This document shows, in pieces, positions 24,517 through 31,067 of a stretch of DNA of 64,000 nt (its first letter is position 1; each line of letters begins with the position of its first letter). A program made the translations under genes and the position numbers. Source of the stretch: Rhodobacter sp. (GTDB lineage: Bacteria; Pseudomonadota; Alphaproteobacteria; Rhodobacterales; Rhodobacteraceae). The DNA is taken from the NCBI GenBank assembly GCA_027484145.1, contig JAIXUH010000007.1:1-64000 (forward strand), given 5' to 3'. A model generated the notes under the pieces. It had not been told where the DNA came from, did no database searches, and saw nothing but the letters and a program-made list of their open reading frames with translations.

Positions 24517-24690
24517 CACTCCCTTGCGATGAGCGTTGAACTGGCTGGCGTGACGCGTGTTGCGGTGGCTACCGGTGGGCGCGGGTCAGTTGCGGCATGG
24601 GTCAGGGCCGGGGGCGCGCCTCTTTCATCCTCCCGTCTGGTCGGCAGGCATGGTATCAGCGGGCCAGGGGAGCGGGGCTTTGGGGGCATC

Positions 24691-26496
24691 ATGGCGGGCA
24701 TGTTCAAATCCCTGATCGGGGGCGCCTTGCTGGCGGGCGTGGTGCTGTTTGGCCTTGTGGTCGAGCGGATGGCCACCCGCAATGCATTGGCCGACGGGCT
24801 GGACCGGGCCGAGACGACCCTGCGCCAGACGCTGAACGGGCTTGAGGGGCATTTGCGGCGGTTCGAGGCCTTGCCCGCCCTTCTGGCGCGGAACCAGAGC
24901 GTTCGCGACGTGCTGGCTGCGCCCGATGACCCGGCCCGCCTTGCGGCGATGAACGCGTGGCTGGCCGAGACGAATGCGCTGATCGAGGCGTCGGACCTGT
25001 ATCTGATCGATCTGGCGGGCACCACGATCGCCGCCTCGAACCATGCGCGCAGTGACAGCTTTGTGGGCCAGAACTTTTCGTACCGGTCCTATTTCACCGA
25101 GGCGCGTGACGGGCGATCGGGGCATTTCTTCGCGCTTGGCACCACCTCGGGCGTGCGGGGGTATTACTTTGCCTCGCCGGTGCAGGATGAGGGCGGGCAG
25201 ATCGTCGGGGTGCTGGCCCTGAAGATCGGGGTGGATGAGATCGAAGCCGCGTGGCGCGCCCGTGACTACCGCATCCTTGTCAGCGATCCGGACGGGATCG
25301 TGTTCATGTCAACCGATCCGGGGTGGCTGTACCACGGGCTGTTGCCGCTGGCCCCGGACCAGTTGGCGCGGATCACGGCGTCACGGCGCTATGCCGATGC
25401 CACGCTGAGCGCGCTGCAGGTCCAGCGGACCACCACGGGCGGCGTGCAACTGATGCGGCTGGCCGATGCGGACGGGTCGGCGCATGAGTATATCGCGACC
25501 GAGCGGGCAATGCCGCAGGCGCGCTGGACGGTGCGGGTGCTGCTGGATACCGCGCCGATCCGGGCGCAGGCGCGGCTGGTGGTGCTGGCCTTTGCGCTGC
25601 TTTTGACCGTCGCGCTGTTGCTGGGCTGGACGGTGCTGCAGCGCCGCGCGCGGCTGGCCGAGCGGCTGGCCATTCAGGCGGCGGCGCAATCAGATCTGGA
25701 GCGACAGGTGGCGGAACGGACGGCCGACCTGACCCGCGCCAACGACGACCTGCACCGCATGCAGGCCGATCTGGTGCAGGCGGGCAAACTGGCCGCGCTG
25801 GGGCAGATGTCGGCCGCGCTGAGCCATGAGATCAACCAGCCTCTAGCGGCCGCGCGCAACTATGCGGAAAGCACGGGGTTGTTGATCGACCGCAACGATC
25901 TGCCGCGCGCCAAGGAAAACGTGGGGCAGATTCTGACGCTGATCGACCGGATGGCCGCGATTGCCCGCCATTTGCGCAACGTGGCCCGCAAGCCCAATGA
26001 GCCGTTGAAGGCGGTTGATCTGCGCGCCGTGGTCGCCGACTCGGTCGTTATCGCGCGAACCCGGCTGGATGCGGCCGATGCCACGGTCTCGCTGGCGCTG
26101 CCCGATGATCTGCCACCGGTACAGGGCGGGCCGGTGCGCCTGCAGCAGGTGATCGTCAACGTGCTGTCGAACGCGGCCGATGCGGTGGAAGGCACGGCTG
26201 ACCGCCGCATCGCCATTTCGGCCCAAACGACGGCAGAGGATGAGATTACCCTTTTGATCCGCGACCATGGCCCCGGTGTGGCCCCGGCCATTGCCGACCG
26301 CATCTTTGACCCGTTCTTTACCACCAAGCAGGTGGGGTCCGGCCTTGGGCTGGGATTGTCGATCAGCTATAACATCATGAAGGATTTCGGCGGCGACCTG
26401 CGGCTGGCCAACCACCCCGACGGCGGCGCCGAATTCCGGCTGGTGCTGCGGCCCGCCCGTTCGCAGGCCCCGTCAAAGGCTTTGGCTGCGGAATGA
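24691..26496 (+). CDS. C4-dicarboxylate-type sensor histidine kinase (DctB-like)
   Basis: 601 residues. First transmembrane helix about 6-24; periplasmic double-Cache-type sensor region about 28-285 with the DctB-like NFSYRSYFTEARDGRSGHFF and GYYFASPV; second helix about 292-312 (VVLAFALLLTVALLLGW); a coiled linker; HisKA with phosphoacceptor H379 in ALSHEINQPLAAARNYAES; HATPase with NVLSNAADAVEG, DHGPGV and GSGLGLGLS. Predicted to sense a carboxylate outside and phosphorylate the adjacent regulator. The ATG at 24691 (MAGMFKSL) sits right before the first helix; the ORF upstream to 24529 looks non-coding. Its stop overlaps the next start (ATGA). Confidence 0.88.
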   Translation: MAGMFKSLIGGALLAGVVLFGLVVERMATRNALADGLDRAETTLRQTLNGLEGHLRRFEALPALLARNQSVRDVLAAPDDPARLAAMNAWLAETNALIEASDLYLIDLAGTTIAASNHARSDSFVGQNFSYRSYFTEARDGRSGHFFALGTTSGVRGYYFASPVQDEGGQIVGVLALKIGVDEIEAAWRARDYRILVSDPDGIVFMSTDPGWLYHGLLPLAPDQLARITASRRYADATLSALQVQRTTTGGVQLMRLADADGSAHEYIATERAMPQARWTVRVLLDTAPIRAQARLVVLAFALLLTVALLLGWTVLQRRARLAERLAIQAAAQSDLERQVAERTADLTRANDDLHRMQADLVQAGKLAALGQMSAALSHEINQPLAAARNYAESTGLLIDRNDLPRAKENVGQILTLIDRMAAIARHLRNVARKPNEPLKAVDLRAVVADSVVIARTRLDAADATVSLALPDDLPPVQGGPVRLQQVIVNVLSNAADAVEGTADRRIAISAQTTAEDEITLLIRDHGPGVAPAIADRIFDPFFTTKQVGSGLGLGLSISYNIMKDFGGDLRLANHPDGGAEFRLVLRPARSQAPSKALAAE

Positions 26497-27836
26497 AGCA
26501 GACAGTCCTTTTGATTGACGATGATGAGGCGATGCGCCGTTCGACCGAGCAGGCGCTGGAGCTTGCCGGTTTTTCGGTGCAGTCGCTGTCCAGTGCCGAA
26601 CAGGGCCTTGCGCTGATCAGCCCCGGCTTCAATGGCGCGGTCATTTCCGACATCCGCATGCCCGGCATGGATGGGATGAGCCTGCTGGAGCGCCTGACCC
26701 TTGCCGACCGTGACCTGCCCGTGATCCTGATCACCGGCCATGCCGAGGTCAGCCTTGCGGTGGAGGCGATGCGGCGCGGGGCCTATGACTTCATCGAAAA
26801 GCCGTTCAGCACGCAGGCGCTTGCCGCCGTGCTGCGCCGCGCGTTGGACCGCCGCGCGCTGGTGATCGAAAACCGCCGCCTGCGGGCCGCCGCCGGGCAG
26901 CGCGATGATCTGGAGGCCCGCCTGCCCGGACGCAGCAGCGCGGTGATCGACCTGCGGCGTCTGGTCCGCACCCTTGGCCCGTCTGAGGCCGATGCGCTGA
27001 TCACCGGGCCAACCGGCGCGGGCAAAGAGGTGGTGGCGCAGGTCATGCACGACCTTTCGCCGCGCGCAGGCCGCCCCTTTATTGCCATCAACTGTGCCGC
27101 CCTGCCCGCGCAACTGATTGAACGTGAGTTGTTCGGCCACGAGGCTGGTGCCTTTCCGGGGGCCATGCGCCCGCGCTTTGGCCGCTTTGAACATGCGCGC
27201 GGCGGCACGATCCTGCTGGATGAGATCGGGTCCATGCCGCTGGAGTTGCAGGCCCGTCTGCTGCGGGTCTTGCAGGACAGGGTCATCATGCGGCTGGGGT
27301 CGAATGATCCCATCGCGCTGGATGTGCGCTTTCTGGCCACGTCAAAGGCCGATCTGGCGCAAGCCGTGGCGACGGGGGCATTCCGGCAAGACCTGCTGTA
27401 TCGGCTGGCCGTGGCAACCGTCCGCGTACCGCCGCTTTCGGCCCGCCGCGAGGATATTCCGCTGTTGTTCCTGCAACTGGTCCGCGAAGCCGCCGCCCGC
27501 CACGGGGTCGAAGACCGCGTGCCGGAACCCGAATTGCTGGCCGACCTTTCCGCCCGCGACTGGCCCGGCAACGTGCGCGAATTGCGCAACGCCGCCGACC
27601 GCTTTGTGCTGGACCTTGACTGGATGGAAGGGGCGGGGTCGGCCACGCCCCGTCTGGCCGAGCGTGTGGCGGGGTTTGAACGAAGCGTGATTGCGGGGGC
27701 CATCGCGGCGCATCGGGGACATCTTCGCAAGGTCTACGAATCGCTCGGGATCAGCCGAAAGACGCTGTACGAGAAGATGCAAAAGCACGGGCTGGACCGC
27801 CGCCTGATCGTCGACGGGGACGAGGCCGAAGGCTAG
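26493..27836 (+). CDS. DctD-type AAA+ response regulator with altered sigma-54 loop (GAFPGA)
   Basis: 447 residues. Receiver domain 1-120 with phosphoacceptor D53 in VISDIRMPGMDG and K in EKPFST; AAA+ domain about 140-370; Fis-type HTH at the C terminus (HLRKVYESLGISRKTLYEKMQKHG). Walker A reads GPTGAGKE (consensus GESGTGKE), Walker B GTILLDEIGSMPLE. The loop that contacts sigma-54 reads GAFPGA (residues 219-224) where GAFTGA is near-invariant. This suggests weakened or sigma-54-independent activation. Overlaps dctB-like by four bases and lies 204 bases before tctC, its likely target. Confidence 0.88.
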   Translation: MKQTVLLIDDDEAMRRSTEQALELAGFSVQSLSSAEQGLALISPGFNGAVISDIRMPGMDGMSLLERLTLADRDLPVILITGHAEVSLAVEAMRRGAYDFIEKPFSTQALAAVLRRALDRRALVIENRRLRAAAGQRDDLEARLPGRSSAVIDLRRLVRTLGPSEADALITGPTGAGKEVVAQVMHDLSPRAGRPFIAINCAALPAQLIERELFGHEAGAFPGAMRPRFGRFEHARGGTILLDEIGSMPLELQARLLRVLQDRVIMRLGSNDPIALDVRFLATSKADLAQAVATGAFRQDLLYRLAVATVRVPPLSARREDIPLLFLQLVREAAARHGVEDRVPEPELLADLSARDWPGNVRELRNAADRFVLDLDWMEGAGSATPRLAERVAGFERSVIAGAIAAHRGHLRKVYESLGISRKTLYEKMQKHGLDRRLIVDGDEAEG

Positions 27837-27847
27837 GCGCGCGCCGA

Positions 27848-27898
27848 TGGGTGGAAATCCACCCAGCCGTTCAGGCGGGTTGGGGCCATTTCCACCCA
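27848..27898. promoter_or_regulatory. Two 18-bp dyads, probable activator sites upstream of tctC
   Basis: Site 1 (27848-27865) is the perfect palindrome TGGGTGGA-AA-TCCACCCA. Site 2 (27881-27898), TGGGGCCA-TT-TCCACCCA, keeps the right arm exactly and five of eight bases of the left arm. The centres are 33 bp apart, about three helical turns, so both face the same side. They lie about 145-190 bp before the tctC ATG, a usual position for enhancer-type sites of NtrC/DctD regulators. No TGGCAC-N5-TTGC promoter was found between them and tctC. Confidence 0.6.
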
Positions 27899-28040
27899 AA
27901 TTGCCCCATGCTGCCCGCAGAACCCGCCGCTGGACGCCCGGTTTCTTTTGCCAGCCCCCCCGAAATGCGCCCCCGTAAGCACAACCGTGCCGGGGAGGAA
28001 AACCGCACGGGGCAACATTGGCCACGTCTGGGAGGACACC

Positions 28041-29018
28041 ATGGCATTGACGACGAAACTCGCCGGCCTCGCCGCCGGCGCGGTGATGGCCGCATCTGCA
28101 GCCATCGCGCAAACCTATCCCGACCGGCAGGTCACCATGGTGGTGCCCTTTGCCGCCGGAGGCCCGACCGATACGGTGGGCCGCCTGATCGCCGAACGCA
28201 TGTCGGCGGACCTTGGCCAGCAGATCATCGTGGAAAACGTGGGCGGCGCGGGCGGCACGCTGGGCGCAGGGAATGTGGCAACCGCCGAGGCGGATGGCTA
28301 CACCGTGCTGTTGCACCATATCGGCATGGCCACCAGCGCCACGCTGTATCGCAACCTTGCCTACAATCCGCTGGAAGCCTTTGAATATGTTGGCCTTGTG
28401 ACCGAGGTCCCCATGACCATCGTCACCCGCAAGGATTTTGAACCGACCGATTTTGCGTCGTTCATCACCTATGTGAAGGAAAACGCCGACACCATCACCA
28501 TGGCCAATGCCGGCATCGGGGCGGCCTCGCATCTGTGCGGGATGCTGTTCATGCAGGCGATCAAAGCACCGATCGTGACCGTGCCTTACAAGGGGACCGG
28601 GCCTGCGATGACGGAACTGCTGGGCGGTCAGATCGACATCATGTGCGACCAGACCACCAACACCGCCGAACAGATCAAGGGTGGCACGATCAAGGCCTAT
28701 GCCGTGACAACGCCCGCCCGACTGGACATCTTCCCCGACCTGCCGACGGTGGCCGAAGGTGGCTTTCCGGGCATGGAAGTGTCGGTCTGGCACGGCCTTT
28801 ACGCGCCCAAGGGCACCCCGGCCGAGGTGATTGACCGCCTGTCAGCCTCGCTGCAGTCGGCCTTGGCTGATCCGGAGATCGCGGCAAAGCTGGCAGAACT
28901 GGGCACAGCCCCTTCGCCCGCCACGGATGCGACGCCTGCCGCGCTGAAGGCCAAGCTGGAGGGCGAAATCGCCCGCTGGAAGCCGATCATCGAAACTGCC
29001 GGCGTTTACGCCGACTGA
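28041..29018 (+). CDS. tctC: Tripartite tricarboxylate transporter substrate-binding protein (TctC family)
   Basis: Periplasmic solute-binding protein that captures a carboxylate (tricarboxylate or related acid) and delivers it to the TctAB membrane part. 325 residues with signal peptide MALTTKLAGLAAGAVMAASAAIAQ. Typical family blocks: YPDRQVTMVVPFAAGGPTDTVGRLIA, ENVGGAGGTLGAGNVA, VPYKGTGPAMTELLGGQIDIMCDQ and FPDLPTVAEGGFPGMEVSVWHGLYAPKGTP. GGGAGGACACC precedes the ATG. First gene of tctC-tctB-tctA; the actual substrate cannot be deduced from sequence. Confidence 0.93.
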   Translation: MALTTKLAGLAAGAVMAASAAIAQTYPDRQVTMVVPFAAGGPTDTVGRLIAERMSADLGQQIIVENVGGAGGTLGAGNVATAEADGYTVLLHHIGMATSATLYRNLAYNPLEAFEYVGLVTEVPMTIVTRKDFEPTDFASFITYVKENADTITMANAGIGAASHLCGMLFMQAIKAPIVTVPYKGTGPAMTELLGGQIDIMCDQTTNTAEQIKGGTIKAYAVTTPARLDIFPDLPTVAEGGFPGMEVSVWHGLYAPKGTPAEVIDRLSASLQSALADPEIAAKLAELGTAPSPATDATPAALKAKLEGEIARWKPIIETAGVYAD

Positions 29019-29087: not shown

Positions 29088-29552
29088 ATGAAAAACATAA
29101 CCGTCGACTGGACCGATGCCATGGCCGGTCTGATCTTTATCCTGTTCGGCCTGCTGTTCGGGGTGCAATCGCTGGGGCTGGAAATCGGCACGGCCTTTCG
29201 CATGGGGCCGGGGTATTTTCCGCTGGTGCTGTCGGGCATCCTGTTGGTGCTGGGCGGGCTGATCGTGTTCAGCGCGATCCATGACCGGGGTGGCGAAGGC
29301 GTGGGCAAGATGGCGTGGCGGGGGCTGTTCTTCATCCTGCCGGCGCCGATCTTTTTCGGGCTGACCGTGCGCGGCCTTGGCTTTGTTCCGGCGATTTTCC
29401 TGACCACGCTGGTGGCGGCGCTTGCCTCGTTCAAGATGCGGCCCCTGTGGGCGCTGGTTCTTGCGGGTGCGGTCACCGTCTTTGCCACTTTGGTGTTTTC
29501 ATACGGCCTTGGCCTGCCCTTCCGGCGCTTTGGCCCCTGGCTTGAATTCTGA
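29088..29552 (+). CDS. tctB: Tripartite tricarboxylate transporter TctB family protein
   Basis: Small membrane subunit of the TTT carrier. 154 residues with four transmembrane helices (about 12-30, 43-63, 80-100, 117-145), the canonical TctB topology, and the early GTAFRMGPGYFPLVLSGILLVLG segment typical of the family (RMGPGYFP). Sits between tctC and tctA with nine bases to the tctA ATG, so cotranslated with it. Confidence 0.9.
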   Translation: MKNITVDWTDAMAGLIFILFGLLFGVQSLGLEIGTAFRMGPGYFPLVLSGILLVLGGLIVFSAIHDRGGEGVGKMAWRGLFFILPAPIFFGLTVRGLGFVPAIFLTTLVAALASFKMRPLWALVLAGAVTVFATLVFSYGLGLPFRRFGPWLEF

Positions 29553-29561
29553 GGCGCATAC

Positions 29562-31067
29562 ATGGACCTGCTTTCAAACCTTTCGCTTGGCTTTGCCACA
29601 GCCGCCTCGCCCGAGAACCTGCTGTTTTGCCTGATCGGGGTGATCCTTGGCACATTGATTGGCGTTTTGCCCGGCATCGGGGCCACGGCGACCATCGCCA
29701 TGCTGCTGCCGATCACCTTTCAGCTGGAACCCGTGTCGTCGCTGATCATGCTGGCCGGGATTTATTATGGCGCGCAATACGGCGGCTCGACCACGGCGAT
29801 CCTGATCAACATGCCGGGCGAAAGCTCGTCCGCCGTGACGGCCATTGATGGCTATCAGATGGCGCGAAGGGGCAAGGCTGGCACCGCGCTTGCCGTGGCG
29901 GCGCTTGGGTCGTTCTTTGCCGGCACCGTGGCCACTCTGCTGGTGGCGCTGTTTGCCCCGCCCCTGACCGCCATCGCCCTGAAATTTGGCGCGGCCGAGT
30001 ACTTCAGCCTGATGCTGCTGGGCCTTGTCTCGGCCATTGCACTTGCGCACGGGTCCATCCTCAAGGCGCTTGCGATGGTTGTCCTTGGCCTGATCCTTGG
30101 GCTGGTCGGCACCGACATCTATACCGGCGCACCACGCTTTACCTTTGGCATCACCGAATATGCCGATGGCCTCAGCTTTGTGGCGCTTGCCGTCGGCATC
30201 TTCGGCATCGCCGAAATCCTGCGCAACCTTGAGGGCGATCAGGACCGCACGGTGCTTGGCACCAGCCTTGGCGGGCTGCTGCCCTCACGCGCGGATCTGA
30301 AGCGGATGGTGGCCCCGATGTTGCGTGGTACGGCGGTGGGGTCCATCCTTGGCATTCTGCCGGGCGGTGGTGCGGTTCTGGCAGCCTTTGCCTCCTATAC
30401 CATTGAAAAGCGCCTGTCGGATCACCCTGAAGAGTTTGGTCAGGGCGCGATTGCCGGGGTAGCCGGGCCGGAATCGGCCAATAATGCCGGGGCGCAAACC
30501 AGCTTTATCCCGCTGTTGACGCTGGGCATTCCGGCGAACCCGGTAATGGCGCTGATGGTGGGCGCGATGATCATTCAGGGCATTGTGCCGGGGCCGAACG
30601 TCGCCAGTGAACAGCCCGAGTTGTTCTGGGGCATCATCGCCAGCATGTGGATCGGCAACCTGATGCTGGTGGTGCTGAACCTGCCACTGATCGGGCTCTG
30701 GGTCAAACTTCTGAAAGTGCCGTATCATGTGCTCTTTCCGGTGATCATGGCGTTCTGTTCTATCGGGGTTTATTCGGTCAACTCGAACGTGTTTGACCTT
30801 TACGCCGTCGCGTTCTTTGGCCTGATGGGCTATGTCCTGCTCAAACTGCGGTGCGAGCCTGCGCCATTGCTGTTGGGCTTTGTCCTTGGCCCGATGCTGG
30901 AGGAAAACCTGCGCCGTGCCATGATCCTTGGCCGGGGGGACCCGACGATCTTTGTCGCGCGCCCCATCAGCCTGACGCTGCTGTTGCTGACACTGGCCGT
31001 TCTGGTGGTGATGTTCCTGCCGTCGATCCGCAAAAAGCGCGAAGAGGTGTTCGTCGAAGCCGACTGA
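29562..31067 (+). CDS. tctA: Tripartite tricarboxylate transporter permease TctA
   Basis: Large membrane subunit that moves the substrate with an ion gradient. 501 residues, about 12 hydrophobic segments. Family motifs: IGVLPGIGATATIAMLLP near residue 35, YYGAQYGGSTTAILINMPGE, GILPGGGAVLAAFASYTIEK and the later AGPESANNAGAQTSFIPLLTLGIP. These glycine-rich repeats are the hallmark of TctA. Followed by a GGGCGGCC/GGCCGCCC hairpin. Confidence 0.95.
   Translation: MDLLSNLSLGFATAASPENLLFCLIGVILGTLIGVLPGIGATATIAMLLPITFQLEPVSSLIMLAGIYYGAQYGGSTTAILINMPGESSSAVTAIDGYQMARRGKAGTALAVAALGSFFAGTVATLLVALFAPPLTAIALKFGAAEYFSLMLLGLVSAIALAHGSILKALAMVVLGLILGLVGTDIYTGAPRFTFGITEYADGLSFVALAVGIFGIAEILRNLEGDQDRTVLGTSLGGLLPSRADLKRMVAPMLRGTAVGSILGILPGGGAVLAAFASYTIEKRLSDHPEEFGQGAIAGVAGPESANNAGAQTSFIPLLTLGIPANPVMALMVGAMIIQGIVPGPNVASEQPELFWGIIASMWIGNLMLVVLNLPLIGLWVKLLKVPYHVLFPVIMAFCSIGVYSVNSNVFDLYAVAFFGLMGYVLLKLRCEPAPLLLGFVLGPMLEENLRRAMILGRGDPTIFVARPISLTLLLLTLAVLVVMFLPSIRKKREEVFVEAD

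Follow-up and report, generated by a model that had tools for sequence, protein, structure and literature searches.

Gene content of the locus

The locus lies in a 64-kb stretch of Rhodobacter sp. DNA, which was analysed at its full length and is called the window here. Its genes stand in the order DctB-like kinase, DctD-like regulator, tctC, tctB and tctA, and the full gene set of a TTT importer is present (Table 1). The periplasmic part of the kinase is a double-Cache domain (PF02743) whose nearest solved structures are the DctB sensor domains 3BY9 (3e-43), 2ZBB and 3E4O, and the receiver of the regulator matches DctD 1QKK. These matches bear out the original prediction of a DctB/DctD-like pair that precedes a TctCBA operon. 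The nearest solved chains of TctC are BugD 2F5X (2e-107) and 6HKE (1e-75), the latter of which we take to be the malate-binding MatC of Rhodopseudomonas palustris. BugD 2F5X was crystallised with aspartate (PMC5812351).

Table 1. Positions of genes, domains and predicted sites in the window
Feature	Position	Strand	Basis and remarks
DctB-like sensor histidine kinase (dCache_1, HisKA, HATPase_c)	24691..26496	+	Pfam; ORF could begin upstream at 24529
DctD-like response regulator (receiver, AAA+ Sigma54_activat, Fis-type HTH_8)	26493..27836	+	Pfam
GAFPGA codons, in place of the sigma-54-contacting GAFTGA loop	27147..27164	+	Regulator sequence
Fis-type helix-turn-helix HTH_8, regulator residues 395-432	27675..27788	+	Pfam PF02954
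Operator site 1 (predicted)	27848..27865	.	Perfect dyad TGGGTGGA-AA-TCCACCCA, 8/8 arm pairs; palindrome score 25.4; kept in relatives
Operator site 2 (predicted)	27881..27898	.	Imperfect dyad TGGGGCCA-TT-TCCACCCA, 6/8 arm pairs; palindrome score 18.8
tctC, TTT periplasmic receptor	28041..29018	+	PF03401 3e-57
tctB	29088..29552	+	PF07331
tctA	29562..31067	+	PF01970

A palindrome pair is conserved behind the regulator gene

Two dyads had been described between the regulator stop codon (27836) and the tctC ATG (28041), and both are present exactly as described, 33 bp apart. Within the window alone they stand at the level of chance. One perfect 8-2-8 dyad was found in the 64 kb where 1.6 are expected from base composition, dyads with 6/8 arm pairs occur at 372 positions, and when the local 150 bp were shuffled 200 times the 33-bp direct repeat was matched in 37 cases. 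Significance from the single sequence was thus rejected; the dyads are significant because they are conserved among relatives of the regulator. Site 2 of the window is a weak site.

The collection of regulator relatives covered the genus and 397 genomes of the family, and the DNA downstream of each relative was read. A palindromic matrix was fitted to the 74 members that lack AFTGA and converged on GATGGGTSGA-NN-TCSACCCATC. Two such palindromes 31-33 bp apart, placed just after the regulator stop codon, were detected in 47 of the 74 relatives and in 2 of 370 dinucleotide shuffles, the model having been trained on the same loci that it scores and the spacing lying outside the fit. The spacing is 32 bp in 30 relatives, 33 bp in 16 and 31 bp in one. 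At least one site above threshold occurs in 62 of the 74 loci; the correctly spaced pair is absent in 27 and any above-threshold site in 12, mostly distant relatives. The right half of the palindrome (TCCACCCAT) is its most constant portion, and site 2 often has a degenerate left arm (for example TGTTACGA). The dyads are better described as a palindrome of 20-22 bp, GATGGGTSGANNTCSACCCATC, that occurs as a tandem pair with a spacing of 32-33 bp. The distance from the sites to the receptor start codon downstream of them is about 150 bp (median 153 bp).

Conservation upstream of orthologous tctC genes, which the original prediction had proposed as a check, was found in L065, L066, L076, L077 and L078. 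The importer gene behind the regulator and the pair varies. The clade of the window has TctC there, most other relatives have TAXI-TRAP and the rest DctP-TRAP. Most relatives of the pair thus stand before genes of a TAXI-TRAP or DctP-TRAP importer, and the link to a TTT operon is not general; the conserved unit is the regulator with its sites, not the importer with the sites. In one locus (L173, genome G273) the regulator and dyads are kept, no importer lies directly downstream and the next gene is convergent.

Loss of the sigma-54 contact loop and promoter element

In the window regulator the sigma-54-contacting loop is lost while the AAA+ core is retained, as in other GAFTGA-less proteins of the NtrC class. 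Its Walker A and Walker B motifs, arginine-finger region and Asp53 are intact, and these are kept together with the helix-turn-helix in nearly all members, which argues that the regulators are not decaying genes. A clade of 69 members, all without the loop threonine, is one branch of the regulator tree (SH-aLRT 98), and the trait changes about three times on the tree. Among more distant relatives, L135, L136, L137, L139 and L140 show further, apparently separate losses of GAFTGA, that of L135 being a deletion.

The state of the loop goes together with the promoter type. A -24/-12 site between regulator and receptor was detected in all five AFTGA members (scores 12.5-20, p<=0.01) and in none of the 74 non-AFTGA members (Fisher 4e-8 over the 79 members, uncorrected for kinship). 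No sigma-54 promoter was found in the window gap, where the best -24/-12 score, 0.4, is reached by 74% of shuffles. One member without the threonine, L114, gave a score of 11.9, which was rejected as a gap promoter since the stretch in which it falls, 1.4 kb long, contains another gene. The same 32-bp repeat was seen in three of the five AFTGA members, clearly in L132 and L138 and weakly in L133, and the paired arrangement therefore probably predates the loss of the threonine.

The presence of rpoN was scored by its DNA-binding domain (PF04552). Of 78 regulator-carrying genomes, 34 gave no detectable match to this domain, and among the 67 nearly complete ones the number is 30. One of the genomes in which rpoN was undetected, G324, has a regulator 83% identical to that of the window, a TctC and a perfect dyad. 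The window genome has two rpoN-like genes (G000:C3:353031-353507 and G000:C38:55526-55966).

Other occurrences of the dyad and a dctA gene

Across the 397 genomes, the exact dyad TGGGTGGANNTCCACCCA is regulator-adjacent in six (G000, G384, G314, G255, G324 and G261) and occurs at two sites in G338. The remaining exact matches are limited to G266 and G077, inside what looks like one coding sequence; by eye, translation of the flanks gives one protein segment, WVDFHP, in both genomes. At L158 and L163 the exact dyad inside the coding sequence encodes WVDFHP, and several one-mismatch matches (TGGGTGGATTTCCACCCG) may belong to the same gene. Exact half-site pairs were detected in four other genomes (G348, G078, G431 and G018). 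In the window genome, scans for the exact pair and for near-exact dyads gave this locus only.

The regulator of G338 is 71% identical to that of the window. The TTT operon that follows it is now broken into stop-bearing fragments by decay, and the local sites are lost; the remnants, with many stops, lie at L172:9318-10300, right after the intact kinase-regulator pair. On another contig of the same genome, an unlinked dctA is preceded at 155 bp by two perfect dyads with a spacing of 33 bp; its product is assigned to NCBIfam PRK01663 with 687 bits (cut-off 513). No homologous regulator was found beside this dctA in the 12 kb read, and no sigma-54 site was detected (best score 0.3). Away from regulator-adjacent loci, the only genome in which the perfect pair turned up has the regulator as well. 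This distribution and the dctA case support the regulator as the binder and point to a signal of the C4-dicarboxylate class. The ligand sensed is probably of this class, with dctA a likely target in G338.

Proposed mode of regulation

The sites are very probably operators of the adjacent regulator. On the comparison of loci, we consider it probable that this DctD-type protein binds them in tandem and activates tctCBA through the housekeeping polymerase and not through sigma-54. The DctB-type kinase would sense an external carboxylate and phosphorylate Asp53 of the regulator. Regulator dimers would then bind both sites cooperatively, three helical turns apart and some 150 bp before the tctC start codon, from where they would activate transcription by the sigma-70 polymerase. 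The regulator lineage has lost the GAFTGA threonine and its target promoters the -24/-12 element, and these two losses argue that activation does not proceed via sigma-54. A consensus scan found no good sigma-70 hexamers between the sites and tctC. Use of sigma-70 is documented for the GAFTGA-less relatives R. capsulatus NtrC, HupR and Caulobacter NtrC (PMC3162934, PMC10274813, PMC12421884).

The original prediction had called the dyads the enhancer-type site of the AAA+ regulator. Their assignment to this regulator is upheld, while the sigma-54 sense of the term is not. A classical enhancer, with tctC transcribed by a sigma-54 polymerase that the regulator remodels, would fit the DctD-type architecture with its tandem upstream sites, the two rpoN genes of the window genome and the sigma-54 promoters that GAFTGA-type outgroups carry at the same place; GAFTGA-less mutants of Caulobacter NtrC also raise some sigma-54-dependent mRNAs (PMC12421884). 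Against this stand the GAFPGA loop, the lack of a -24/-12 element in the gap and the same arrangement in genomes without detectable rpoN, and changes at the Phe or Thr of the loop mostly abolish sigma-54 activity (PMC3162934). We regard sigma-54-dependent transcription of tctC as highly improbable. That the regulator binds both sites and represses tctCBA, or works in both modes according to its phosphorylation state, is unlikely but has precedents: TyrR and PhhR, which lack GAFTGA, can act as repressors, and Caulobacter NtrC is both an activator and a repressor. The distance of the sites from the receptor start codon is far for simple occlusion, and importers are usually induced by the kinase with which they are paired.

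The dyads might also be bound by a protein other than the adjacent regulator, and in some TAXI loci another conserved palindromic block, TTGCGCAA, does lie close to the promoter. The pair remains beside the regulator whichever importer follows, and its perfect form away from the regulator is confined to a regulator-carrying genome, which makes another binder very unlikely, if slightly less so than the sigma-54 enhancer. The least probable alternative is an RNA hairpin that would act as a terminator or attenuator in the gap from the regulator gene to tctC. The two sites of the window do fold at -31 kcal/mol (z -5.7), as do those of L065 and L118, but any two copies of a palindrome can pair, no T-tract follows the fold, and the fold is missing in L067, L097 and L115 although these keep the site pair. 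A hairpin was rejected as a conserved feature since it is not common to the relatives that keep the pair, and the hairpin of the window is for the same reason a by-product of the two palindromes.

Activation by way of the housekeeping polymerase, our preferred reading, leads to a bolder proposal, which we regard as doubtful. An ATP-driven enhancer-binding protein may have been naturally converted, across the family, from sigma-54 to the housekeeping polymerase, with the operator spacing kept, the threonine replaced by Pro or Ala, and the ATPase still driving or gating sigma-70 open-complex formation from afar.

Relation to known systems

The window system resembles DctB/DctD, the C4-dicarboxylate two-component system of rhizobia and Vibrio, in its sensor domain, receiver, domain order and tandem upstream sites, and in the predicted operators before dctA in one relative genome. 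It differs from DctB/DctD in having neither GAFTGA nor a sigma-54 promoter, in standing beside TTT or TRAP importers and in that rpoN is dispensable. With the GAFTGA-less sigma-70 activators NtrC and HupR of R. capsulatus it shares an NtrC-class AAA+ protein that has lost the sigma-54 contact and kept the ATPase core, and sites that lie far upstream. The window regulator belongs to a DctD-like subfamily, and a point substitution of Thr to Pro or Ala stands here where R. capsulatus NtrC has a loop deletion; unlike NtrC and HupR, its lineage has predicted local carboxylate-importer targets. Caulobacter NtrC is likewise GAFTGA-less with the ATPase kept and works at sigma-70 promoters, but it is a global nitrogen regulator with an eight-residue loop deletion. 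TctDE and BctDE are also two-component pairs that adjoin tctCBA, whereas the window regulator is of the NtrC class, with a DctB-type sensor and an AAA+ domain, and not of the TctD type.

That GAFTGA can be lost with a change to sigma-70 is already known, and Francke and co-workers noted about 110 deviating homologues in which Pro is preferred at the Thr position (PMC3162934). We found no paper on this DctD-like lineage. As far as the literature found goes, what appears to be new is the lineage with its predicted operator palindrome, the retained spacing, the exchangeable importers and the independence of rpoN. The family offers a replicated, tree-placed case of an enhancer-binding regulator leaving sigma-54, with outgroups that have both GAFTGA and -24/-12 and a large clade that has neither, with nearly half of the carrier genomes lacking detectable rpoN and with paired sites on both sides of the change. 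Pairs of close relatives thus offer a direct test of why the ATPase stays intact after the loss of sigma-54. The palindrome can be used to find regulon members such as dctA, and such regulators should not be annotated as sigma-54 activators.

Further conserved blocks near the sites

TAXI loci including L067-L073 have a conserved TTGATTGCGCAAAC block that follows site 2 at about 25 bp, and more distant loci have GTTTGCGCTAAC-like palindromes; both lie in the interval from the predicted operators to the TAXI gene. These blocks look like a second operator, perhaps that of a LacI-type repressor. Two other patterns, both read by eye and given as leads only, are a TTTGC-N23-TG block common to the TctC loci and TTGAGT-N18-TTTCT, which is common to seven TAXI loci.
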